Shown here: positions 164 to 12,759 of the stretch, in pieces | Layout: the number at the start of each line of letters is the position of its first letter | Numbering within the stretch: the first letter of the stretch is position 1 | DNA from: Verrucomicrobium sp. | GTDB lineage: Bacteria; Verrucomicrobiota; Verrucomicrobiia; Methylacidiphilales; GAS474 | Reading direction: 5' to 3' | Length of the DNA stretch: 64,000 nt | NCBI GenBank assembly: GCA_028283855.1 | Contig: JAPWJX010000001.1 | Span: 124,001-188,000 of the forward strand | Made by a program: the position numbers and the translations under genes | Notes under the pieces: generated by a model | The model's input: only the letters and a program-made list of their open reading frames with translations | Told to the model about the DNA's origin: nothing | The model's database searches: none

Positions 164-799
164 TTAATCTTTTTGGGTGCGGGGAGGCTTCACGTTGAGC
201 TTGCGGGAAGCGGCGGTCAGTTTCTCATCGGTGGCCGCCTCCTCTTCCAGGGTTTCCTGAAGCAGGGAGGCCGCCGCCCGGTCGCCCAGGAGCTGGGCGT
301 AGGTGCGGACCGTGCCGTAACCGGCGATCTCGTAGTGTTCCACCCGCTGGGCGGCGGCGATGAGCGCCGCGTCCTTCACTTCCGGGGTGGCGTTTTCGGA
401 GATGGTCTCGCTGCCTTCCTCGACTAGGCCCTGCATGGCCTTGCAGGTCTTTCCGGTGGGGGATTCCTCATAGCGGGAGAGGATCTCCTCCAGCCGCTGG
501 GCGTGGACCTTCGTCTGCTCCAAGTGGGTCAGGAAACCTTTGCGCAATTCGGCCGCATGGGCGGCCTTGGCCATCTTCGGCAAGGCATCGACCAGCTGCG
601 TTTCCGCGCTGTAGAGGTCCTTCAATTGTTCGATGAAAAGCTGCTCCAGGCTTGTGATCTTCTCCTGGCCCATGTGGGTCACCGCCTCGTAGATCGCCTG
701 GGCTTTTTCCTTCACCCCGCGAGTCACGGTTTTGAAGGATTGCTTCTTCTTCGTGCCGCGCCGCGGCACCCGGGTTGTGGTGTGGCGTTTCTTGATCAT
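164..799 (-). CDS. DUF892 ferritin-like protein (YciE/YciF family)
   Basis: A 211-aa protein of the DUF892/YciE-YciF family, small four-helix ferritin-like proteins often linked to stress responses. The body begins at about residue 43 with the family-typical SLEQLFIEQLKDLYSAE. Acidic and His residues recur through the helices (ETQLVDALPKM, HLEQTKVHAQRLEEIL, AAAQRVEHYEIAGYGT), consistent with a di-metal helical bundle. The N-terminal 40 residues are strongly Lys/Arg-rich, a basic extension seen in some relatives that may bind DNA or simply be disordered. I chose the ATG at 799 because it includes this extension; an ATG at 673 would give a minimal domain. The open frame runs up to 943, but that part looks non-coding. 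Metal binding is family knowledge, not shown here. Confidence 0.85.
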   Translation of the reverse strand: MIKKRHTTTRVPRRGTKKKQSFKTVTRGVKEKAQAIYEAVTHMGQEKITSLEQLFIEQLKDLYSAETQLVDALPKMAKAAHAAELRKGFLTHLEQTKVHAQRLEEILSRYEESPTGKTCKAMQGLVEEGSETISENATPEVKDAALIAAAQRVEHYEIAGYGTVRTYAQLLGDRAAASLLQETLEEEAATDEKLTAASRKLNVKPPRTQKD

Positions 800-901
800 G
801 GATGAAAACCCGCATCGCATGTGCCTAAAGCGGCTTGGAAGGCCGCAATCCCCTTGAGGCGAAGGAATTCCGCAAGAATATCCGCCGGGGTAAGTATCAT
901 G

Positions 902-916
902 GTTTTGTTGCAAAAC
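902..916. repeat. Short perfect inverted repeat in divergent intergenic region
   Basis: GTTTTG-TTG-CAAAAC, 6-bp arms around 3 bp, lies between the divergent DUF892 gene and the first metallopeptidase-like gene. It could be an operator for either; no regulator is identified. A lone -10-like TAAAAT at 979-984 faces the plus-strand gene. Otherwise the 800-1001 gap shows nothing recognisable. Confidence 0.35.
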
Positions 917-1001
917 GCATGAACCGGGGTGGGGGAGGGGCAATTTTGAGCGATGGCGCGGAAAAGAGGCTCTTGGCCTAAAATTTGCTTAAGAGGGGCC
1001 A

Positions 1002-2642
1002 ATGTTTCGCAAAGCCCATCTCCGGAACGTCGCGTTCGAGGCCGCTTTGGCCTTGGGCCTGGGCGCGCCCGCATGGGCTCAGGCCCCGTTCCAGACGCCC
1101 CTTTTCGGGCATGAGCCGAAGGTGGAGGCTCCCCTCCCGCCGAATATGGCTTCCCTATTTTCTCTCCTGGCGTCGCCGCGGGAAAAGACCTTCACCGCCT
1201 TGGTCACTCCCCGGCCGGCGGTGAAAGGGGATTTTGAGGCCAAGGCGCAGGTGACCGATTTTTGGAAGCTGGCCTTCGGCCAATGGCCCGTGCCGGGGGT
1301 CGAGTTCGACCCGGACATCGTCCGGGAAGTGCCCCTGGAATTAACGACCCGCTTTGATCGCTCGCCGAGCGGCTACCACGCCACGACGAACGGTTACGCG
1401 GGATTCGGCACCGAGTCCCGGGATATGGCGCGGCAGGACTATTTGGAGGACGAGGGGGAGATTTTTGGGCCTGCTAAAATCCGTTCCGCCCTGCCCCCCC
1501 TTCAGCAAGGCGTGGAGATCGGCATCACGGTGGAGGGGCATGAAACGGCCCACGCCGTTTTTAACGAGCGGATGGCGCTCCTCGATCTTCTCACCCGCCC
1601 GGCCTGGCGGCAGAAGGGGATCCTGGCCTCTCCCGTTTCCGGCCACGGCCCGGTTTTGGAAAGCCTGCTGGAAGAGGGAGAGACGCCCTTGGAAACGATG
1701 ATCCGGCAGGTGCGGCTCCAGACCGGATACGAGATGATGAATGCCGGCGAGGACGACACCGCCCTGCATGAGTATCCTCTCCTTGTCACGGAGATCCGCT
1801 CTTACCTGACCGGCCCGATCACTGACCAGATCGCCTCAAAGGCCTGGAGCCGCCTGCCCGCCACGCCCCAGGAGCTGTGGGCCGCCTACGCCAACGTGGT
1901 GGAGGAAACCCCCAAGGGCGGGGAATCGGGCCGCTACCTGGCCTCGCCGGAGGGCAAGAAGATGCGGGAGCAGTTTCCGGTCGTTTTGACCAACGAGGCG
2001 GCGCGCGATTCCCGCGTCTGGCTCAAGCGCGGCTTGAAGATGGTTCCGGAAGAGAAGCGGGCCGGTTTCTTTGAAAAAGTCCTGCCCCAGATCTATGGGG
2101 AGCTGCTGGAAGATTGGGGCGATCCCAAGGGCTTGGTGAAGATGGGCCTCCCAGCCAGCCCGGTCTACGGCATGGCCTTTGCCCATCAATTGATCTACGC
2201 CGGCCACCCCGAAAAGCCGTGGACGCAAAAGCAGTGGCAAAAGGTGGCCGCCCAGGTGGAGCCGGAGGTCTTCCAACGGGTGTGCGAGCTGGCCATCGCC
2301 CACCGTCAGTCGATCGCCCTGGACGCCTTGCTTCAGACCCCGCAGGGCCGCTCCCTGCCTCAGGACGCCAAGGACCGCTTCTACTCGGAAGCCGCCTTGG
2401 CGCAGGAGTGGGATCCGGCGGACGACCTTTTGGGCAAGCTCCAGGCCAGCCGGAACGTGCAGGCCCTGCTGGCCGCCGGAGCTCGTTATCCGGAGGCTCC
2501 CCAGCCCCAGAAAATCGACCCCGGCGTCTTCCGCCTGCCCCTGGTGCCCCGCATCCTGCTGCCGAAGGACTTCAAGCTGGCGCCCGCGCCGGAGGCGAAG
2601 GAAGCGCCGAAGCCGGCAGGCGGCTGGGTGTTTCTCCCCTGA
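1002..2642 (+). CDS. Putative secreted zinc metallopeptidase, tandem paralogue A
   Basis: A 546-aa protein of no family I recognise. The N-terminus is a plausible Sec signal ending at AWA-Q (residues 1-27). An HExxH motif occurs at H180-E181-x-x-H184 (HETAH), and a second conserved acidic site, TE264IRSYL, lies 80 residues later, the arrangement expected of gluzincin-type zinc peptidases (HExxH...E). The C-terminal half carries a strongly conserved block (YGELLEDxGD, VKMGLPAxPVY, MAFAHxLIY) shared with the next gene. The ATG at 1002 follows AAGAGGGG by 3 nt. It sits 36 nt before paralogue B, so the pair is probably one transcript. The zinc-peptidase reading is inference from motifs; the substrate is unknown. 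Confidence 0.55.
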   Translation: MFRKAHLRNVAFEAALALGLGAPAWAQAPFQTPLFGHEPKVEAPLPPNMASLFSLLASPREKTFTALVTPRPAVKGDFEAKAQVTDFWKLAFGQWPVPGVEFDPDIVREVPLELTTRFDRSPSGYHATTNGYAGFGTESRDMARQDYLEDEGEIFGPAKIRSALPPLQQGVEIGITVEGHETAHAVFNERMALLDLLTRPAWRQKGILASPVSGHGPVLESLLEEGETPLETMIRQVRLQTGYEMMNAGEDDTALHEYPLLVTEIRSYLTGPITDQIASKAWSRLPATPQELWAAYANVVEETPKGGESGRYLASPEGKKMREQFPVVLTNEAARDSRVWLKRGLKMVPEEKRAGFFEKVLPQIYGELLEDWGDPKGLVKMGLPASPVYGMAFAHQLIYAGHPEKPWTQKQWQKVAAQVEPEVFQRVCELAIAHRQSIALDALLQTPQGRSLPQDAKDRFYSEAALAQEWDPADDLLGKLQASRNVQALLAAGARYPEAPQPQKIDPGVFRLPLVPRILLPKDFKLAPAPEAKEAPKPAGGWVFLP

Positions 2643-2678
2643 TTGTCATTTCACGCGGGCGGCGTATTTTAAGGGGCG

Positions 2679-4313
2679 ATGGGTTGGAGAACTTACGTCC
2701 GCAACGCCGTTTTGGAGGCGGCCCTGCTGCTGGGGCTGCCGGGGCAGTTCGGCGTGGAGATTCCCCAGCCGCCGCAGATCCGGGCCCAGCGGGCCAACTC
2801 GGCGCCCGGAGCCGATCTGGCGGCCCGGGAAGACCGGCTGCTCCAGGGCATCGGCTTCCATGACCAGGCGCTGACGCAGCGCACGGAACTGCGCGGCCGC
2901 AGCAACACCATCGCCTTCCTGGCCGCGGCATTCGGCCGGTGGCCGGTGGCGGCGGTCGATTTCGACCCCGACCTGCTCCGCTCCCAATCGGTGGAGACGC
3001 GGACCCGTTTCGACGCCACCCGGGAAACGATCCATGCGGAGACGGACGGCATGGCGATGCTGGAGCAAAACGGCTTCGACCTCTTCGACCCCGCCTATCC
3101 GCAGGTGGAGAAGGCGGCTTTCACCGAGCCGGTGCTCAACTCCCACCTGGCCCCGATCGAGAATATCGACGACCTTTCCGCCGCCATGCACGTGGAGGCG
3201 CACGAGGGGGTGCACGGAAACCATTACGAGCGGGAGAACCTGCTGGCCGTCCTGGAAAGCGGGGCGCATGAATACTCCGTCGGCGCCTCCCGCCTGACGG
3301 GGCACGGCCCCGCTTTGGAGGCGCTCCTGGCTTCCGGCGAGACGCGGGAAGAGACGGAGGCGCGGCACGCCCGCATGGCGTCCGTTTCCCCGGAGCAGGG
3401 GGACGACGCCGACTACTGCCTCCACTACACCGAGCTGCGCTCCTATCTGGGAGACTTGCTCATCGGCGGGATTTCCAGCGGCGCGTGGAGCCGCCTGCCC
3501 GCCACGCGGCAGGAGTTGTGGGCCGCCTTTTACAATTTCGCCGGAGGCCTGGCGAAGGGGCCGGACGCGGTGAACCGCTCCCTGGTGGGGCGGGAAGGGG
3601 AGAAGCGGCGCAACGCCTTTCCCGCGCCCGTCGCCGATCCGGAGCTGGACATAGCCCAGCGCGTCGTCGATCAGGCGCTTTCCCGCATTCCCGAGGCCAA
3701 TCGCCCCGCCTTTTACGAGCAGGTCCTCCCGGAGATCTACGGGGAGCTGCTGGAGGATTTGGGCGACCGGAGCGGTAAGGTGAAGATGGGGCTGCCCGCC
3801 GGCCCGGTCTACAGCATGGCCTTTGCCCATCACTTGATCTACGACCGGCGCGGGGCGGCGGCCGCGTGGGATGCGCGGATGTGGCGGAAAGTCGCGGCGA
3901 AGGTGGAGCCGGAGAAGATCGAGCGCCTGTGCGAGCTTTCCGTCGTCCACCGCAACGCGGAAGCGCTCCAGGCTCTCCTGGACGCGGCGGACCGGAACCC
4001 GAAGGCCTACCGGATCAGCGATTCCGGCAAGGCGGGGCTATTGCAGGGGGCGATTCAAGTGGCGGCGCGCCCGGCCGGCGCGGTGGAGGCCGCCCACGCC
4101 CGGCAAAGCGTGGAAATCCTCCGCTCTTACGGGGCAAGGCTGCCGGACCGGCAGGGTTTTGCCTTCACGTCGGTAAAGGACATCGGCAAGGAGCCGGAAG
4201 CCTCCCGGCCGGAGCCGACGAAGGGCGAGGTGCTGGGCAGCCAGCCCGGATACGGTGGGGACGCCGCGCCGCTGCCCGGCCAGGCTAAGCCCGGCCGGGT
4301 CCGCCAGCGTTAG
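2679..4313 (+). CDS. Putative secreted zinc metallopeptidase, tandem paralogue B
   Basis: A 544-aa paralogue of the preceding gene, clearly from a tandem duplication. It shares the N-terminal segment (RNAVLEAALLLGL versus RNVAFEAALALGL), the FDPD segment near residue 97, H175-E176-x-x-H179 (HEGVH), TE252LRSYL, AWSRLPATxQELWAA and the VKMGLPAxPVY/MAFAHxLIY block. Both copies keep HExxH and the distal Glu although overall divergence is large, which argues that the metal site is functional in both. The N-terminus is hydrophobic but lacks an obvious cleavage site, so it may be membrane-anchored. AAGGGG lies 2 nt before the ATG. Its TAG overlaps the fabV TAA on the other strand. Function is inferred only. 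Confidence 0.55.
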   Translation: MGWRTYVRNAVLEAALLLGLPGQFGVEIPQPPQIRAQRANSAPGADLAAREDRLLQGIGFHDQALTQRTELRGRSNTIAFLAAAFGRWPVAAVDFDPDLLRSQSVETRTRFDATRETIHAETDGMAMLEQNGFDLFDPAYPQVEKAAFTEPVLNSHLAPIENIDDLSAAMHVEAHEGVHGNHYERENLLAVLESGAHEYSVGASRLTGHGPALEALLASGETREETEARHARMASVSPEQGDDADYCLHYTELRSYLGDLLIGGISSGAWSRLPATRQELWAAFYNFAGGLAKGPDAVNRSLVGREGEKRRNAFPAPVADPELDIAQRVVDQALSRIPEANRPAFYEQVLPEIYGELLEDLGDRSGKVKMGLPAGPVYSMAFAHHLIYDRRGAAAAWDARMWRKVAAKVEPEKIERLCELSVVHRNAEALQALLDAADRNPKAYRISDSGKAGLLQGAIQVAARPAGAVEAAHARQSVEILRSYGARLPDRQGFAFTSVKDIGKEPEASRPEPTKGEVLGSQPGYGGDAAPLPGQAKPGRVRQR

Positions 4314-5491
4314 TGGGCCAGCGTCGCCGGCTTGCCTTCCATGAGGAGGGGGTCGGACTCGGCCTCGTAATCGAGGCCCGGCAGGCCGAAGCCGAAGAGG
4401 CGCAGGAACTCGGCCTGGGTGCCGGCCACGTCGGAGATCTCCTTCACGTTTTCCGTGGAGGCCTGCGGCCAGAGTTTCTCGACCTCCGCCTGCACGTCCG
4501 GGCGCATCTCCCAGTCGTCGATACGGATGCGGCCCGCCTCGTCGTAGGACTTCGCGGGGAGGACCTCGGCGTAGAGGCGGCGCATCTGCTCGATGCAGCC
4601 CTCATGGAGGCCCTTTTCCTTCATCACCTTGTAGAGGAGGGAGAGGTAGAGGGAGACGACGGGGATGGCGGAGCTGGCCTGGGTGACCAGCGCCTTGCTG
4701 ACCACGATGCGGGCGTCGAGCTTCTTGCGCAGGCGCGCGGCGGTCGTTTCCAGGTCTTCCTTGGCCCGGCCGATGGTGCCGTTGCGGTAGATGGGGAAGG
4801 TGAGGACGGGGCCGATGTAGGAGTAGGCCAGGGTGGTGGCGCCGGGGGCCAGGACGCCGCCCTGCTCCAGCGCGTCGATCCAGCGCTCCCAGTCGTCACC
4901 GCCCATGACGGCGGTCGTTTCGGCGATCTCCTGCTCGTTGGCGGGCTCGATGGTGATCTCGTGCACGCGGAGGCGGTCGGTGTCCAGAGTCTTGGCCGTG
5001 TAGGGGGCGCCGATCGGCTTGAGGCACGACTTGGAGGTCTGGCCGGTGCGCGGGTCGACGCGGCGCGGGGCGGCCAGGCTGTAGACGACGTGGTCGACCT
5101 GGCCCCAGTCTTCCTTGATCTTGGCCACGACCTGGGCCTTCACGTCGTCGCCGAAGGCGTCGCCGTGGACTTCCTTGGCGTAGAGTCCGGCGGCGTGGGC
5201 TTCCCGCTCGAAGGCGACGGTGTTGTACCAGCCGGGGCTGGTGGTGCGGTCGGCCTCCGGGGCCTTGGCGTGGAAGACGCCCAGGGTGGCCGCTCCGCCG
5301 CCAAAGGCGGCGGCGATGCGCGCGGCCAGGCCGTAGCCGGTGGAGGAGCCGATCACCAGGACCCGCTTCGGCACGCCGGGAAGGGGGCCGCCTTTCTTCA
5401 CCACGTCGATCTGCTGGCGCACGTGGGCGGCGCAGCCGTCAGGATGGGTGGTCAGGCAGATGAAACCGCGGATACGGGGGCGCAAAATCAT
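4310..5491 (-). CDS. fabV: Trans-2-enoyl-ACP (CoA) reductase FabV
   Basis: A 393-aa member of the FabV family of NADH-dependent enoyl reductases, which carry out the last step of each fatty-acid elongation cycle in bacteria that lack or supplement FabI. It opens with the signature ILRPRIRGFI, has a Rossmann nucleotide loop (VIGSSTGYGLAARIA, residues 46-60) and the active-site Tyr-(x8)-Lys unique to FabV as Y235 and K244, the same numbers as in characterised members. Length is the family norm. It is convergent with metallopeptidase paralogue B (stops overlap by 3 nt). FabV enzymes are commonly triclosan-insensitive; that is family knowledge. Confidence 0.95.
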   Translation of the reverse strand: MILRPRIRGFICLTTHPDGCAAHVRQQIDVVKKGGPLPGVPKRVLVIGSSTGYGLAARIAAAFGGGAATLGVFHAKAPEADRTTSPGWYNTVAFEREAHAAGLYAKEVHGDAFGDDVKAQVVAKIKEDWGQVDHVVYSLAAPRRVDPRTGQTSKSCLKPIGAPYTAKTLDTDRLRVHEITIEPANEQEIAETTAVMGGDDWERWIDALEQGGVLAPGATTLAYSYIGPVLTFPIYRNGTIGRAKEDLETTAARLRKKLDARIVVSKALVTQASSAIPVVSLYLSLLYKVMKEKGLHEGCIEQMRRLYAEVLPAKSYDEAGRIRIDDWEMRPDVQAEVEKLWPQASTENVKEISDVAGTQAEFLRLFGFGLPGLDYEAESDPLLMEGKPATLAH

Positions 5492-6080: not shown

Positions 6081-7778
6081 TTAGCTCTTCTTCGCCGGGG
6101 GCTTCTGCATCTCGGCGTGGACCTGGGTCCCCTCCTGCAGGGAGTCGGCGGGATTGAGGATGACGCGGTCTTCCGGCTTGAGGCCGTCGACGATTTCGAT
6201 GGTGTTGCCGAAGTCGCGGCCCAGCTTCACCTTGCGCAGGTCGACGGTGTTGTTCCCGTTGACCACGCCGACGAGGCTCCCGGCGGAGCGGAAGAGGAGG
6301 GTGTTGATCGGCACGATGAGCGGCGGACGAGGCAGCACCACCTGGAAGGCGACCTGGGCGTAGCCGCCGGGGAGCAGCTTGCCGTCGGCGTTGGGGACTT
6401 CCAGCTGGACGAGCAAGGTCTTGGAGGAGGGGTCGATGGCGCCGGAGATGTTGGTCACTTTGCCGGTGACGGGGGTGTTGGGGGCGGAGTTGAGGAGGAT
6501 CTTGGCCTGCGTGCCCAGGGTGACGGCGCTGGCGTAGCCTTCCGGCACGTTCACGTAGACGCGCAGGCGGTCCGTCTGGGCGATGTGGAAGAGCTCCGGC
6601 CCGACGGAGGTGCCCGACCCGGCGTTGATGAGCGCGCCGACGTCGGTCTGGCGGGCGGTGATGACGCCGTCGAACGGGGCGACGACTTTTTGGAAGGAGA
6701 CGAGGGCTTCCAGCCGCTTTACGTTGGCCTGCTGGGCGGAGAGGTTGGCCTCCTGGACGGCCAGGTTGCTGTTCCGCTCGTCGACTTCCTGCTGGGCCAC
6801 GGCGTTTTGCTTGAGCAGGTCGCGCCAGCGGGTGGCGGTGGTGCGGGCCAGGATGAGGCTGGCTTCCGTCTGGGAGAGGGAGGCGCGGGCCTGGTCGAGT
6901 TCCTGGTCGACTTCCGGCGTCTCGATCTCGGCCAGGAGCTGGCCGGCTTTCACCTTGGCGCCGATGTCGACAAGCCACCGTTTCAGGTAGCCGCTGGTGC
7001 GGGCGTAGACGGGGGAGTCGTAGAACGACTCGACGTTGCCGGGCAGGGAGATATCGATGTCGGTTTGGCCGGCCTTCGGGTTGAGGACGGTGACGGTGGG
7101 CACGGCCATGGCTTCCGTGTCTTCCTTGACCCCCTCGTCGCGGAAGTAGCGGGGGATGAGGACGGCGGCGACGACGGCGAGGGCCACGAGCAGGCCGATG
7201 ACGATCGGCGTCCAGCGGACGCGGCCCTCCGCGGGGACCGGCGGCGGAGCGGTGCGGGGCGGACGGGAAGCGGGGCCTGCCTCATGCGCGGGCAAAGCCA
7301 GCACGGTATGGGAGGGGAGGGAGAGAGGGGGCTTGGCGGGGACCGGCGGGGGCGGAAGCGTCGCCTTGGAGGCGGGGGGCGTGCCGCCGGGCTTCGGCGC
7401 GTCGGAGGTTTTGGTGTTTTCCGTTCCGGCGGCTCCGGCGGCCTCGGCGGCGGAAAGGGATTCTTCCGCGGCCAGCAGGGATTCCCGGGCGGCGGCCAGG
7501 GATTCTTCCATGGAGGCCAGGGACTCTTCCGCGACGGTGAGGGATTCCTCCGCCTCGACGAGGGGTTCTTCCACGGCGGTGACGGGGTCGGCCAGGAGCG
7601 GCTCCTCGGCGGCCAGGAGGGATTCCTTGGCCTCGGAAAGGGAGTCCTTGGCGGCGGCCAGGGATTCCTCCGCCGTGGTGAGGGACTCTTCCGCGTTCAC
7701 CAGCGGCTTCTCGACGGAGGAGAGGGTTTCTTCGGGCAGGGAGGCTTCCGGGTTCTTTCCGGTCGGCTTGTCGTTCAT
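6081..7778 (-). CDS. RND efflux periplasmic adaptor with heptad-repeat cytoplasmic head
   Basis: A 565-aa membrane fusion protein (HlyD/AcrA-like) that should bridge the RND permease to an outer-membrane channel. The recognisable adaptor starts after a transmembrane helix (about 190-209): a lipoyl/barrel-sandwich half (SPVYARTSGYLKRW... GQLLAEIETPEVDQELDQA), a helical hairpin (about 300-350), the second lipoyl half (VVAPFDGVITARQTDVGALI), then beta-barrel and membrane-proximal domains. The first 190 residues are unusual: about twelve heptads of consensus E-S-L-x-x-A-E (residues 24-112), then a Pro-rich linker (130-185). Typical adaptors have only a short signal or anchor there. Its ATG overlaps the permease stop (ATGA), so translation is coupled. 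Confidence 0.9.
   Translation of the reverse strand: MNDKPTGKNPEASLPEETLSSVEKPLVNAEESLTTAEESLAAAKDSLSEAKESLLAAEEPLLADPVTAVEEPLVEAEESLTVAEESLASMEESLAAARESLLAAEESLSAAEAAGAAGTENTKTSDAPKPGGTPPASKATLPPPPVPAKPPLSLPSHTVLALPAHEAGPASRPPRTAPPPVPAEGRVRWTPIVIGLLVALAVVAAVLIPRYFRDEGVKEDTEAMAVPTVTVLNPKAGQTDIDISLPGNVESFYDSPVYARTSGYLKRWLVDIGAKVKAGQLLAEIETPEVDQELDQARASLSQTEASLILARTTATRWRDLLKQNAVAQQEVDERNSNLAVQEANLSAQQANVKRLEALVSFQKVVAPFDGVITARQTDVGALINAGSGTSVGPELFHIAQTDRLRVYVNVPEGYASAVTLGTQAKILLNSAPNTPVTGKVTNISGAIDPSSKTLLVQLEVPNADGKLLPGGYAQVAFQVVLPRPPLIVPINTLLFRSAGSLVGVVNGNNTVDLRKVKLGRDFGNTIEIVDGLKPEDRVILNPADSLQEGTQVHAEMQKPPAKKS
7443..7709 (-). repeat. Degenerate 21-bp repeat encoding heptads in adaptor head
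   Basis: About twelve diverged 21-nt units encode E-[SP]-L-x-x-A-[EKR] heptads, residues 24-112 of the RND adaptor, with one 5-residue interruption (VTAVE, 66-70). Leu recurs at one heptad position and Ala at another, favouring a helical coiled coil. Third-codon positions vary between units, so the protein pattern is better kept than the DNA. Confidence 0.75.
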
Positions 7779-10700
7779 GAGTTAGCGGTTTCCAGGGAGG
7801 CGTGGGAGGAGCCGGTTTCCGGCTTCCGTTCGGGTTCCTGTCGGGAGGCGTCCGTTTCCGGCGTCTGGCCGTGGCGGACCACGGTGAAGACGACGGGGAC
7901 GAAGAAGAGGGTGGCGCAGGTGGCGAAGAGGAGGCCGCCGATGACCGCGCGGGCCAGGGGGGCGTTTTGCTCGCCGCCCTCGCCCATGCCGAAGGCCATC
8001 GGGATCATGCCGATGATCATGGCCAGGGCGGTCATGATGACGGGGCGGATGCGGGTGGAGCCGGCCTCCAGCGCCGCCTCCAGGGCGTCGCCGTGCTTTT
8101 CGAACTGCTCCTTGGCGAAGGAGATGACCAGGATGCTGTTCGCCGTGGCGACGCCGATGCACATGATCGATCCCATGAGGGAGGGGACGCTCAGGGTGGT
8201 GCCGGTGATGAAGAGCATCCAGACGATGCCCGCCAGTGCCGCCGGGAGGGCGGTGATGATGATGAAGGGGTCGCTCCAGGACTGGAAGTTGACCACGATG
8301 AGGAGGTAGACGAGGACGATGGCTCCCAGGAGGCCGATGCCCAGGCCCAGGAAGGAGGCGTGCATGGTCTCCACCTGGCCGCGGATGGTCATGCGGCTGC
8401 CGCGGGGCAGTTCCTTTTGAGCCTTGTCCACCAGCTTGCGGACGTCGGAGGCCAGGCCGCCCAGGTCGCGGCCCTGGCTGGTGGCGTAGATGTCCAGGGT
8501 CGGCATCACGTTGTAGTGGGTGACGACGTTCTGTCCGTTGAAGCGGGAGAAATCGGCCAGGTTGCTGAGGATCTGCGGCGGCTGCCCGCGGCGCGCGGTG
8601 CTGGTGATGGGCAGGTTTTGCAGGGTGGAGAGGGAGTCGATGGCGTAGTCCGGCATCTCCGCGACGAGGTTGTAGTTCACCAGGTTCTTCGGGTTGAGCC
8701 AGTAGGTGGGGGAGACCTGGCCGGAGCCGGAGACGGCGACGAGGAGGCCGTGGGAGACGTCCGCCATGGTGAGGCCCAGCTGGCTGGCCTTGGTCCGGTC
8801 CACGCTGAGCTGGATGTGGGGCTGGTCGAAGAGCTGCTGGATGTGGACGTCGGCGGCGCCGGGGACCTGGCTGATCTGTTCGCGCAGCTCGCGGGCCACC
8901 TTGCGGTTTTCCACGATGTTGGCCCCGGCGATCTGGATGTCGATGGGGGAGGGGATGCCGAAGTTGAGGATCTGGGTGACGATGTCGGCGGGCTGGAAGA
9001 AGAAGTCGGTGCCGGGGAATTTCTGGGGAAGGATCTTCCGCAGCTTGCGGATGTAGCCGGAGGTGGGGTGGTGGTCTTCCGAAAGGGCGATCTGGATTTC
9101 CGCGTCGGCGGGGCCGACGGTGCCGTTGTTGGCGTAGGAGGTGTTGATGCTGCTGTAGGGCTGGCCGATGTTGTCGATGATGGTGTGCAGTTCCTTGGCC
9201 GGAATCTGGCGGCGGAGCTCGGCTTCGATCTCGTCGCACAACTTGGCCGTTTCCTCGATGCGGGTGCCGGTCTTGGCGCGGACGTGGAGGCGGATCTGCC
9301 CGGCGTCGACGTCGGGAAAGAAGTCCTGACCCAGGAAGGGGATGAGGCCGAGGCTCAGGAGGCAAAAGGCCAGGAAGATGAGGGAGAAGGGGCCGCGGTG
9401 GTGAAGCGCGCCGGTGAGGGCGCGGCGGTAGCGCTGGCGCATCTTTTCGAACCCGCCTTCAAAACGCTCCCGCACCCGGCTGCAGAAGGCCCAGAAGGAG
9501 GCGCCGGAGCGGCGGAGGAAGCCGGGGTCGGCGGGGGCGGCCTTCTTTTCCTGGCCCCGGGTGTGGTGGTGGTCGGCCCCCAGGAGGTACATGGAGAGGG
9601 TGGGGACCAGCGTCCGGGAGAGGAAGTAGGAGGCCATCATGGCAAAGCAGACCGCCTCCGCCAGGGGGACGAAGAGGTAGCGCGCCACGCCGCTGAGCAT
9701 GAACATGGGGACGAAGACGATGCAGATGCAGAGGGTGGAGACGAAGGCCGGGATGGCGATCTGGCGGGAGCCTTCCAGGATCGACTCGATGAGGGGCTGG
9801 CCCTCTTCCAGGTGGCGGTTGATGTTTTCGATGGCCACGGTGGCGTCGTCCACGAGCATGCCGACGGCCAGCGCCAGGCCGCCCAGGGTCATCAGGTTGA
9901 TGGTTTCACCCAGGGCGCTCAGGGCGCAGACGGAACAGAGGATGGAGAGGGGGATGGAGACGGCGATGATGAGGGTGCTGCGCCAGCTGCCCAGGAAGAG
10001 GAGGATCATGAGCGCGGTGAGGCAGGCGGCGATCACCGCCTCCCGGACGACGCCGTTGATGGAGGCGCGGACGAAGATCGACTGGTCGAAGAGCGCCTTG
10101 ACGTTCAGCTCCTTCGGCAGCTGGTTCTGCAGGAAGGGGAGCATCTTCTTGACCCCGCTGACGATGTCCAGGGTGGAGGTGTTGCCCGTCTTCATGACGG
10201 CCATGAGCACGCCGCGGCGGCCGTTGTCCCGGACTACGTTCGTCTGGATGGCGAAGCCGTCCCGCGCGTGGCCGACGTCCCGGATGTAGATGGTGCTGCC
10301 GTCGCCGAACTGGCGTACGGGCAGGTCGTTCAGCTCGGCCACGGTCAGGGGGCTGCCGTTGAGGTCGATGTTGTACTGGATGTCGCCGATCTTGGCCGTG
10401 CCGGAGGGGAGGATCAGGTTTTGGTTGTTGAGGGAGGTCAGCACGTCGTCGGCGGAGACGCCCTTGGCCTGCATGGCGGCCAGGTCCAGGTCGATCATGA
10501 CCTGGCGCATCTTGCCCCCGTAGGGATAGGGAATGCCGACGCCCGGGACCGTCACCAGCTGCGGGCGCATGAAGTTCATGCCCAGGTCGTTCAGGTCCTG
10601 CTCGGAAAGGGTGTCGCTGGAGAGGCCCAGCTGGATGACCGGCACGCTGGATGCGTTATAAGTGATGATGAGGGGCGGAGTGGACCCGGAGGGCATCTGG

Positions 10701-11083
10701 CGCAGGATCGTCTGGGAGACCGCCGTTACCTGGGAAAGGGCCAGGGGCAGGTTGGCGCCGGGGTGGAAGAAGATCTTGATGACGTCGCGGTCCTGCATGG
10801 ACTGGGACTCGATCCGCTCGATGTCGTTGACCGTGGTGGTGAGGACCCGCTCGTAGGGGCTGGTCACCCGGTTGGCCATGTCCTCCGCCGAGAAGCCGGT
10901 GTAGTTCCAGAGGACGCTGATGACCGGGATGTCGATGTTCGGGAAGACGTCCGTGGGGGTCTTGAGGATAACCAGCGGGCTGATGATCAGAACCAGGAGC
11001 GCGAAGACGATGAACGTGTACGGGCGGTCAAGGGCAAGACGGACGATCCACATGGTAAAGTATGCCTGCGATTTCCGCGCCAC
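7775..11083 (-). CDS. RND-family efflux permease
   Basis: A 1102-aa inner-membrane RND transporter, the proton-driven pump of a tripartite exporter. It has the standard two-fold layout: TM1 near residues 20-40, a large periplasmic loop, TM2-6 around 335-520, a cytoplasmic linker containing a His run (GADHHHTRG), then the second half with TM7-12. The TM4 proton-relay aspartates are present (GMLVDDATVAIEN). The Lys expected in TM10 of AcrB-like pumps is not: the matching segment reads GVATANSILVISFAK, as in some other RND subfamilies. ATG 11083 gives a 10-residue leader before MWIVRLALDRPY; an ATG at 11053 is also possible. It precedes its adaptor in the operon and is divergent from the outer-membrane factor. 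Substrate unknown. Confidence 0.93.
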   Translation of the reverse strand: MARKSQAYFTMWIVRLALDRPYTFIVFALLVLIISPLVILKTPTDVFPNIDIPVISVLWNYTGFSAEDMANRVTSPYERVLTTTVNDIERIESQSMQDRDVIKIFFHPGANLPLALSQVTAVSQTILRQMPSGSTPPLIITYNASSVPVIQLGLSSDTLSEQDLNDLGMNFMRPQLVTVPGVGIPYPYGGKMRQVMIDLDLAAMQAKGVSADDVLTSLNNQNLILPSGTAKIGDIQYNIDLNGSPLTVAELNDLPVRQFGDGSTIYIRDVGHARDGFAIQTNVVRDNGRRGVLMAVMKTGNTSTLDIVSGVKKMLPFLQNQLPKELNVKALFDQSIFVRASINGVVREAVIAACLTALMILLFLGSWRSTLIIAVSIPLSILCSVCALSALGETINLMTLGGLALAVGMLVDDATVAIENINRHLEEGQPLIESILEGSRQIAIPAFVSTLCICIVFVPMFMLSGVARYLFVPLAEAVCFAMMASYFLSRTLVPTLSMYLLGADHHHTRGQEKKAAPADPGFLRRSGASFWAFCSRVRERFEGGFEKMRQRYRRALTGALHHRGPFSLIFLAFCLLSLGLIPFLGQDFFPDVDAGQIRLHVRAKTGTRIEETAKLCDEIEAELRRQIPAKELHTIIDNIGQPYSSINTSYANNGTVGPADAEIQIALSEDHHPTSGYIRKLRKILPQKFPGTDFFFQPADIVTQILNFGIPSPIDIQIAGANIVENRKVARELREQISQVPGAADVHIQQLFDQPHIQLSVDRTKASQLGLTMADVSHGLLVAVSGSGQVSPTYWLNPKNLVNYNLVAEMPDYAIDSLSTLQNLPITSTARRGQPPQILSNLADFSRFNGQNVVTHYNVMPTLDIYATSQGRDLGGLASDVRKLVDKAQKELPRGSRMTIRGQVETMHASFLGLGIGLLGAIVLVYLLIVVNFQSWSDPFIIITALPAALAGIVWMLFITGTTLSVPSLMGSIMCIGVATANSILVISFAKEQFEKHGDALEAALEAGSTRIRPVIMTALAMIIGMIPMAFGMGEGGEQNAPLARAVIGGLLFATCATLFFVPVVFTVVRHGQTPETDASRQEPERKPETGSSHASLETANS

Positions 11084-11151
11084 AGCAGGTGGCGTAAGGA
11101 GTCGTTCCCGGCAGTCGGAACCCTAGAACCACCGCAGGGGCTCTGGCTACA

Positions 11152-11169
11152 TTTTTTCAGAAGAAAAAA
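11152..11169. promoter_or_regulatory. A/T inverted repeat between RND permease and outer-membrane factor
   Basis: TTTTTTC-agaa-GAAAAAA: perfect 7-bp arms around a 4-nt loop, in the 134-nt divergent intergenic region. It may be an operator or a terminator-like hairpin; both flanking genes point away from it, which favours regulation. Confidence 0.4.
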
Positions 11170-11184
11170 GGCTTCCGATTTTCA

Positions 11185-11204
11185 GGAGTCTTAAGGCAGA
11201 CTCC
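11185..11204. promoter_or_regulatory. Inverted repeat just upstream of the outer-membrane factor
   Basis: GGAGTCT-taaggc-AGACTCC: perfect 7-bp arms with a 6-bp spacer, ending 13 nt before the ATG at 11218. Size and symmetry suit a dimeric repressor operator (TetR- or MarR-like) or a 5'-UTR hairpin. No regulator gene is adjacent. Confidence 0.4.
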
Positions 11205-11217
11205 GCCCCATCGCTCG

Positions 11218-12759
11218 ATGAGGTCCGGCCGTTATCCTTTTTTCCGCACCGGGGTGCTTTTGCTCCTCCTTTCCGGCTGCAGTGTCGGCCCGGACTACCA
11301 CCGTCCCCCGGCGGAGACCCCCACCCAGTGGAAGGAAGCGGGCAACCCCAGCGGCGCCTGGAAACAGGGTGCGCCCCAGGATGCCATCGCCAAGGGAGCC
11401 TGGTGGGAAATTTTCCACGACTCAGTCCTTAACGACCTGGAGGCCCAGGCCACCGCCTACAACCAGAACCTGCGCGCCGCCGTGGCGCGCGTCGCCCAGG
11501 CCCGCGCGGAAGCCCGCGTCAGCGCCGCCCAGTTCTACCCGAACATCACCCTGGACCCCACCGTCCAGGAACTGCACTACAACGCCAACCAGCTCTACGC
11601 CCCCGCCGTCGCCCCCCGTGCTTATACCGGCACCACCTACCAGGTGCCCCTCGACCTGAGCTATGAAATCGACATCTGGGGCCGCGTCCGCCGCGGCTTC
11701 GAATCGGCCAACGCCCAGGCCCAGTCCAGCGTCGCCGATTACGAAAACATCCTCCTGACCCTCAAGGCCGACGTGGCGCAGAATTATTTCTCCCTGCGCT
11801 CCCTCGACACGGAGGCCGACCTTCTCCAGCGCACCGTCGAGCTGCGGGAGAAGGCCTACAACCTGACGAAGGCCCGCTTCGAGGGCGGCGCCTCCAGCCA
11901 GCTCGACGTCGCCCAGGCCCTGACCGAGCTCGAGTCGGTCCGCGCCCAGACCCTCGACATCGGCGTCCAGCGGGCCAAGCTGGAGCACGCGCTGGCCATC
12001 CTGATCGGCAAGCCCCCCTCGGCGGTGAAGATCCTCCCCCTGCCGTTCTCCCCGGACGCCGCCCCGCCCGTCATCCCCGCCGGCCTGCCTTCCGACCTCC
12101 TGGAGCGCCGCCCTGACGTGGCCCAGGCGGAGCGGGCCATGGCCGCGCGCAACGCGGAAATCGGCGTCGCCACGGCCGCCTTCTTCCCCGTTCTGAGCCT
12201 GAACGGCAACTTCGGCTTGCAGAGCAAGGACATCTCCAACCTCTTCACCTGGGGCAGCCGCAGCTGGGGCGTCGGCCCCACCATCTCCGTGCCGCTCCTG
12301 GACGGCGGCGTCAACTCCGCCCGGCTTAAGGAAGCCCGCGCGCGCTATCAGGAATCGGTCTCCCTCTACCGGCAGCAGGTCCTCCAGGCCTTCGTCGACG
12401 TGGAGGACGGCCTCTCCTCCCTGCGCATCCTTTCCCAGGAAGCCGACGTGCGGAAGCGGACCGTCGACGCCGCGCAGCAGGCCGCCACCATTTCCGAGGA
12501 CCGCTACACGCAGGGATTGGTGAACTACCTCCAGATCGTCGACTCGGAGCGGACGCTCCTCGACAACCAGCGCCAGTCCACCCAGATCCAGGGACAGCGC
12601 TTCGTCACCGCCGTCATGCTCATCAAGGCCCTGGGCGGCGGCTGGCAGGACAATACCCTGATCCCGAACAAGCTGCCGAAGGTGAGCACCTCCCCCATCG
12701 CGCTGCTGGCCCCTTCCTCCCCGCGCCTCCAGATCTCCGACGCGCCCGCGCCGAACTAG
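11218..12759 (+). CDS. Outer-membrane efflux lipoprotein (NodT/OprM-type TolC family)
   Basis: A 513-aa outer-membrane factor, the exit duct for the divergently encoded RND pump. A lipoprotein signal is plain: VLLLLLSGC with the lipobox Cys at residue 21, followed by SVGPDYHRPP, the usual start of NodT-type factors. Two OEP repeats follow (about 60-250 and 275-470) with typical helix-barrel phrases such as YEIDIWGRVRRGFESA, LPSDLLERRPDVAQAE and VGPTISVPLLDGG. The C-terminal 40 residues are Pro/Ser-rich and probably periplasmic. Length is normal. No strong ribosome site is visible; the inverted repeat at 11185-11204 lies in its leader. Confidence 0.93.
   Translation: MRSGRYPFFRTGVLLLLLSGCSVGPDYHRPPAETPTQWKEAGNPSGAWKQGAPQDAIAKGAWWEIFHDSVLNDLEAQATAYNQNLRAAVARVAQARAEARVSAAQFYPNITLDPTVQELHYNANQLYAPAVAPRAYTGTTYQVPLDLSYEIDIWGRVRRGFESANAQAQSSVADYENILLTLKADVAQNYFSLRSLDTEADLLQRTVELREKAYNLTKARFEGGASSQLDVAQALTELESVRAQTLDIGVQRAKLEHALAILIGKPPSAVKILPLPFSPDAAPPVIPAGLPSDLLERRPDVAQAERAMAARNAEIGVATAAFFPVLSLNGNFGLQSKDISNLFTWGSRSWGVGPTISVPLLDGGVNSARLKEARARYQESVSLYRQQVLQAFVDVEDGLSSLRILSQEADVRKRTVDAAQQAATISEDRYTQGLVNYLQIVDSERTLLDNQRQSTQIQGQRFVTAVMLIKALGGGWQDNTLIPNKLPKVSTSPIALLAPSSPRLQISDAPAPN

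Follow-up and report, generated by a model that had tools for sequence, protein, structure and literature searches.

Tandem HExxH-containing paralogues from a verrucomicrobial genome belong to a lineage-expanded family of putative gluzincin-type endopeptidases

Introduction

What are the two adjacent genes near one end of a 64,000-nucleotide stretch of the Verrucomicrobium sp. genome (GenBank assembly GCA_028283855.1, contig JAPWJX010000001.1, positions 124,001 to 188,000; here called the window), whose products both carry an HExxH motif followed at a distance by a glutamate? A first-pass annotation, made from the letters of the window, had proposed that the two proteins, P1 and P2, might represent a new secreted gluzincin family. 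The analysis described here indicated that the proteins are probably members of a new family of gluzincin-type zinc endopeptidases that has expanded in this lineage. The gluzincin-like site and the lack of a named family were upheld, but the pair is not a unit and secretion would apply to one subclade at best.

Results

The P1/P2 locus

Both open reading frames are real and the encoded proteins were 37% identical over 515 aligned positions, which cover most of their length (E value, 2e-86), in agreement with the earlier description of adjacent paralogues with full-length similarity. The pair is located between a DUF892 gene and a convergent trans-2-enoyl-CoA reductase (FabV) gene, and the last 4 nt of P2 overlap the latter (Table 1). 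Beside FabV, at positions 6081-12759 of the window, were an HlyD-type gene and two genes named by eye, one for an RND-type pump and one that is divergent and outer-membrane-factor-like.

Table 1. Features of the P1/P2 locus, in window coordinates
Feature	Coordinates	Strand	Description	Basis
DUF892 gene	164..943	-	On one side of the P1/P2 pair	
P1	1002..2642	+	546 aa; first copy of tandem pair	ORF call; 37% identity to P2
P1 N-terminal hydrophobic segment (aa 10-24)	1029..1073	+	Followed by AWA; contains Glu; possible signal peptide	Hydropathy
P1 HETAH (H180-H184)	1539..1553	+	Both His predicted to bind zinc, E181 to act as general base	Conservation
P1 Y258	1773..1775	+	Near-invariant Tyr, 6 residues before distal Glu; candidate transition-state Tyr	Conservation; analogy with PPEP-3 Tyr190/Glu197 (PMC12828418)
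P1 E264	1791..1793	+	Predicted third zinc ligand	Present in 13/14 own-genome copies; invariant in 34 sequences
P1 YGELLE (Y365-E370)	2094..2111	+	Opens YGxLLExxGD family block	Source of DNA search pattern
P1 C-terminal helical, ankyrin-like tail	2259..2501	+	Begins at conserved EPE	Ankyrin by resemblance (LLxAGA); Pfam Ank weakly matched the C-terminal piece of a relative
P2	2679..4313	+	544 aa; second tandem copy, separated from P1 by 36 nt	
P2 N-terminal hydrophobic segment (aa 10-24)	2706..2750	+	Without clear cleavage site	Hydropathy
P2 HEGVH (H175-H179)	3201..3215	+	Both His predicted to bind zinc, E176 to act as general base	Conservation
P2 Y246	3414..3416	+	Counterpart of P1 Y258	Conservation
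P2 E252	3432..3434	+	Predicted third zinc ligand	Conservation
P2 YGELLE (Y354-E359)	3738..3755	+	Opens YGxLLExxGD family block	
FabV gene	4310..5491	-	Trans-2-enoyl-CoA reductase; convergent, on other side of the P1/P2 pair	

Conservation of the predicted metal site

The HExxH motifs proposed at first pass (H180/H184 in P1 and H175/H179 in P2) were confirmed, as was a distal Glu, which lies 80 residues after the second His in P1 (E264) and 73 residues after it in P2 (E252). In an alignment of the 14 copies detected in the source genome (see below), H180, E181, H184 and E264 (P1 numbering) were among the best-conserved columns; HExxH was kept in 12 of the 13 copies that reach the site and the distal Glu in 13 of 14. 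An alignment of 34 sequences, consisting of 12 copies from the source genome and 22 alphaproteobacterial relatives, contained only five invariant columns, H175, E176, H179, E252 and G362 (P2 numbering), four of which belong to the predicted site. G86, Y246, P274, P351, Y354, E359, D363 and G371 were nearly invariant. Two degenerate copies from the source genome had been omitted from this set on purpose and one relative, L087, also lay outside it, so that "invariant" holds among apparently intact members. The HExxH motif expected of gluzincins, with both of its His residues and its Glu, was found in the 34 apparently intact homologues, and HExxH was detected in 26 of the 27 distinct relative frames spanning the site when these were counted without selection for intact members. 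These counts bear out the earlier proposal of a gluzincin-like metal site, which is strongly conserved. A Y-x5-E motif was present in nearly all family members, and the His-to-Glu spacing varied from 41 to about 90 across the family. The VKMGLPAxPVY/MAFAHxLIY block, described as invariant from the window pair, varied in the wider family, where a YGxLLExxGDxxGxxxMG block persisted instead.

Homologues that lose the motif had been named at first pass as evidence against the assignment, and a few such copies were detected. In the copy at 348 kb of contig C3 (L023:11762-13378), RLAVR replaces HExxH and the distal Glu and much else are kept. In L087, EEQIH replaces HExxH with loss of the first His, and much of the remainder is again kept. 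From these substitutions, both copies are likely to be pseudoenzymes, whereas the remainder of the family retains the site. The copy on contig C4 is a remnant of about 200 aa that does not include the metal-site region.

Expansion to at least 14 copies in the source genome

At least 14 family members, distributed over four contigs, were detected in the source genome (2.56 Mb in nine contigs; 95.6% complete) by tblastn and profile searches of the genome contigs, and the 14 were recovered with P1, with P2 and again with the profile. Three tandem groups were present, namely, the window pair (C1), three genes at C3:348-353 kb and three genes at C3:62-67 kb, together with six single genes. The tandem pair of the first-pass annotation therefore consists of adjacent paralogues, as stated, but is part of a 14-member family and not a two-gene unit. 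The neighbours of the copies were housekeeping genes (purC, a fumarase/aspartase-type lyase gene, dnaE, alaS, fabV, helicase genes and a sulphite/nitrite reductase gene), and no phage genes, secretion genes or immunity partner were recognized beside those copies whose neighbourhoods were scanned. The GC content of the copies (0.65-0.73) and their GC3 (0.80-0.93) were in keeping with those of the surroundings. A C-terminal Arg was noticed post hoc in 10 of the 14 members; among the other called genes, the count was 11 of 104 (Fisher P value, 2e-6).

In a phylogenetic tree, the copies from the source genome and the alphaproteobacterial members were placed on opposite sides of one branch (support, 100/99), and the divergence between the copies of the source genome was deep. 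One clade (100/97) united the window pair with two genes of the C3 trio, and within it P2 was perhaps closer to a copy from C3 than it was to P1 (86/47, a weak value). Since the window pair groups with C3 copies and forms no stable twosome, the tree suggests an origin by block duplication and not a conserved couple. The proposal that duplication provided paired substrates found no support, as P1 and P2 were not stable sisters.

N-terminal sequences and export

A weakly hydrophobic N terminus, with a mean hydropathy of 1.2 to 1.7 over 15 residues near the start, was observed in 6 of the 14 copies, and in the others this value was lower or the segment was displaced. Five of these six weak leaders belonged to the window pair and the C3 trio. 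An AxA site was evident by eye in P1 only, and the leader segment often contained Glu, which is unusual in signal peptides. Several of the copies without a leader begin directly at the conserved region. On this evidence, one subclade, made up of the window pair and the C3 trio with perhaps the C3:1054 kb copy, may be exported, and export of the other copies is unsupported. The proposal of secreted proteins would accordingly hold for one subclade at best.

Distribution outside the source genome

Searches of related genomes detected the family in the source genome only. No matches to P2 were obtained in 61 other genomes of the order, two congeners among them, and a profile search of these congeners detected no family member. 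When two profiles were run against 388 genomes sampled from the phylum, with up to four candidates scored per genome, the source genome alone matched, barring one spurious match. The spurious match (G389/L032) was weak and was rejected as a relative by its sequence. The FabV protein encoded next to P2 was 73-74% identical in both congeners. An empty-site comparison with one of these (G002) gave no clean insertion site, because no neighbours beyond FabV are shared.

A wider search was performed at the DNA level, covering about 85,000 species, with the pattern PxxYGxxLExxGDxxGxx[KR][ML]G, which is derived from the family block and holds no information on HExxH. Nine matches were obtained, all in Alphaproteobacteria, four of which were labelled Micavibrio. 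All nine were confirmed by the family profile built from the source genome, with scores of 60 to 119 bits and E values of 1e-19 to 1e-37 in a search of these nine sequences, and HExxH and the distal Glu were present in each of the nine. In the order of one of these matches, 22 of 142 genomes contained a match, mostly one each, the weakest being marginal (E value, 7e-4). A sample of its class added two further genomes with relatives, and a sample of its phylum yielded one distant relative, L102, and three M48-like peptidases. In L102, from a 4.6-Mb genome, a membrane-like segment precedes HEHMH and a Y-x5-E motif follows. Judged by these sequence matches, the family occurs elsewhere mainly among Alphaproteobacteria, in a group to which the predator Micavibrio belongs.

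Some features of individual loci were also observed. The family gene lay near genes for BPL_N-domain (PF09825) proteins in three Micavibrio-type loci (L046:2382-3200, L048:3607-4431 and L050:2999-4538), with two such genes in L050. In L047:4954-6316, the member appears to be split: a separate open reading frame downstream encodes the C-terminal part, in which an ankyrin-like repeat was weakly matched by Pfam Ank. A search for related loci with four close copies returned nothing in genomes or viruses. Viral contigs gave no matches to the YG..LE pattern and four to a Y-x5-ExQARxH pattern, none of them a relative.

Database comparison and structure models

The family was not recognized by the databases searched, in line with the first-pass statement that no named peptidase family applies. 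Pfam (2025), searched with 23 distinct members at E values of up to 1, returned no peptidase family and a few unrelated chance matches; NCBIfam (2026) returned no match for the family; the PADLOC models of antiphage defence matched none of 21 members; and a profile search of PDB sequences gave chance matches only. No description of the family was found in the literature.

An AlphaFold2 model of P2 made with P1 alone was unusable (pLDDT, 30.7). A model of the alphaproteobacterial homologue L048, which is 20% identical to P2, reached a pLDDT of 76.3 and a pTM of 0.74 from an alignment of 11 rows (L048 and ten relatives, including both window domains). In this model, HExxH (residues 119-123) is contained in a helix (109-132) that follows two short strands (84-87 and 93-96), Y158 is in a helix (154-160) and E164 is at the start of another (162-180). 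A Foldseek search of the PDB detected no match with an E value below 1, three selecase entries being among the weak matches, and a search of the Foldseek viral library detected nothing significant. Alignment of residues 11 to 281 (approximate limits) with the catalytic region of lethal factor gave Z scores of 5.8 (142 residues, 4.2 Å) and 5.2, and weaker values were obtained with a Shewanella lipoprotein of unknown function (5.0), ERAP2 (4.6) and EryP (4.2); residues 13 to 133 aligned with the abylysin zymogen with a Z score of 4.2. According to the alignment tool, Z scores of 4 to 6 are within the range of common arrangements; the values obtained lie below the level showing homology. As different zincins recur over one part of the model, each match being weak, the first 270 residues or so of L048 appear to be partly zincin-like. 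The tail (residues 281-366) matched helical repeats only. The helical solenoids that dominated the structural matches covered this tail alone and were set aside, as they show only that the tail is helical.

Discussion

A mechanism can be proposed for P1 and P2 as gluzincin-type peptidases. The two His residues of HExxH and the Glu of Y-x5-E would hold one Zn2+, the Glu of HExxH would activate a water molecule and the near-invariant Tyr, located six residues ahead of the third ligand, may stabilize the transition state, by analogy with the Tyr seven residues before the Glu of the Pro-Pro endopeptidases. The helical, ankyrin-like C-terminal tail would help to choose substrates, and duplication with divergence to at least 14 copies could have generated a set of proteases with different specificities. 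Retention of the HExxH helix for metal binding or for the fold, in proteins that are some other hydrolase or binding proteins, is an improbable alternative: members without the motif are still retained and peptidase activity is a prediction from sequence, but conservation is not confined to the His residues and includes, with the ligands, the Glu and Tyr presumed to act in catalysis. We consider it scarcely credible that the family is an artefact of contaminating contigs or chance HExxH motifs. Its absence from all relatives searched would fit such an origin, but the copies are spread over four contigs, one of 1.42 Mb carrying dnaE, their GC and GC3 values fit the surroundings and the adjoining FabV is that shared with both congeners. 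Contamination was rejected on the base composition, the spread over contigs and the housekeeping neighbours.

The role of these proteins is a question separate from their mechanism, and the two readings considered here concern role alone, both being compatible with a peptidase. Somewhat short of an even chance may be given to ordinary cellular peptidases with a regulatory or quality-control function, in the manner of minigluzincins or M48 enzymes, which were duplicated by happenstance and do not act on other cells. The 8 of 14 copies with no clear hydrophobic leader, the location among housekeeping genes (purC, the lyase gene, dnaE, alaS and fabV) and the local match of the HExxH helix to M48 peptidases point in this direction, but that match is confined to 26 columns round the motif, with no Pfam M48 match, and a 14-fold lineage-specific expansion that is missing in two congeners would be unusual for a housekeeping protease. 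The expansion and the deep divergence between copies would fit a second reading, in which the copies are an exported proteolytic arsenal directed at proteins of prey, hosts or competitors and diversified under conflict; we regard this as possible though doubtful. It would also fit the ankyrin-like tails, the weak leader in one subclade and the patchy occurrence in the alphaproteobacterial order (22 of 142 genomes), with Micavibrio, a predator feeding on prey contents (PMC6145908), among the named members. Against it, no secretion genes, immunity partner or phage genes were recognized beside the copies scanned, the leader is weak and contains Glu, and the matched organisms may or may not themselves be predators. 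A more extended version, in which the paralogues form a diversified proteolytic arsenal used against other cells and shared by transfer with Micavibrio-type Alphaproteobacteria, the dead copies serving as decoys or regulators, seems unlikely.

As gluzincin-type peptidases, these proteins would add a family that is missing from Pfam 2025 and NCBIfam 2026 and has clear candidate catalytic residues. The presence of 14 copies in a 2.56-Mb genome and of none in sister species marks a lineage specialization, and the family's occurrence in a group with predatory members offers a lead in the search for substrates.

Among known systems, three are close enough to be compared. Minigluzincins possess a distal Glu besides HExxH; selecase and abylysin, which we take to constitute the family provisionally called M95, were represented among the structural matches to the L048 model (abylysin with a Z score of 4.2 and selecase among the weak Foldseek matches). 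In contrast to the present family, with its catalytic and helical region of about 380 aa, they are single domains of about 110 aa, and the PDB sequence search did not match them. The likeness to M48 (BepA-like) peptidases is a local profile match at the HExxH helix, with an hhalign probability of 71 over 26 columns against three M48-like proteins, but nothing was matched beyond that helix or by Pfam M48, and the family was not placed in M48.

The M34 peptidases (PPEP/Zmp1 and the catalytic domain of anthrax lethal factor) have HExxH on a helix and, a little ahead of the Glu that serves as third ligand on the next helix, a Tyr; the present family shows a similar layout, its Tyr and Glu being candidates for these roles. 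PPEP-3 binds zinc through His153 and His157, with Glu197 as third ligand, Glu154 as base and Tyr190 as catalytic residue (PMC12828418); in lethal factor, zinc is bound by His686, His690 and Glu735, with Glu687 as the base (PMC5668564). The present family differs from M34 in having no Pfam match, an extra YGxLLExxGD block, a helical C-terminal tail, a spacing that extends to about 90 residues and a Tyr at -6 from the Glu rather than at -7 as in PPEP-3. The family was not filed under M34, since no sequence match was obtained and the structural resemblance to the catalytic region of lethal factor (Z score, 5.8) is too weak. The His-to-Glu spacing of L048 (H123 to E164, 41 residues) is close to those of PPEP-3 (H157 to E197, 40 residues) and lethal factor (H690 to E735, 45 residues). 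The order H, E, H, Tyr and Glu recurs in the present family, with the Glu six residues after the Tyr, and we therefore infer that P1 and P2 are gluzincin-type zinc endopeptidases.
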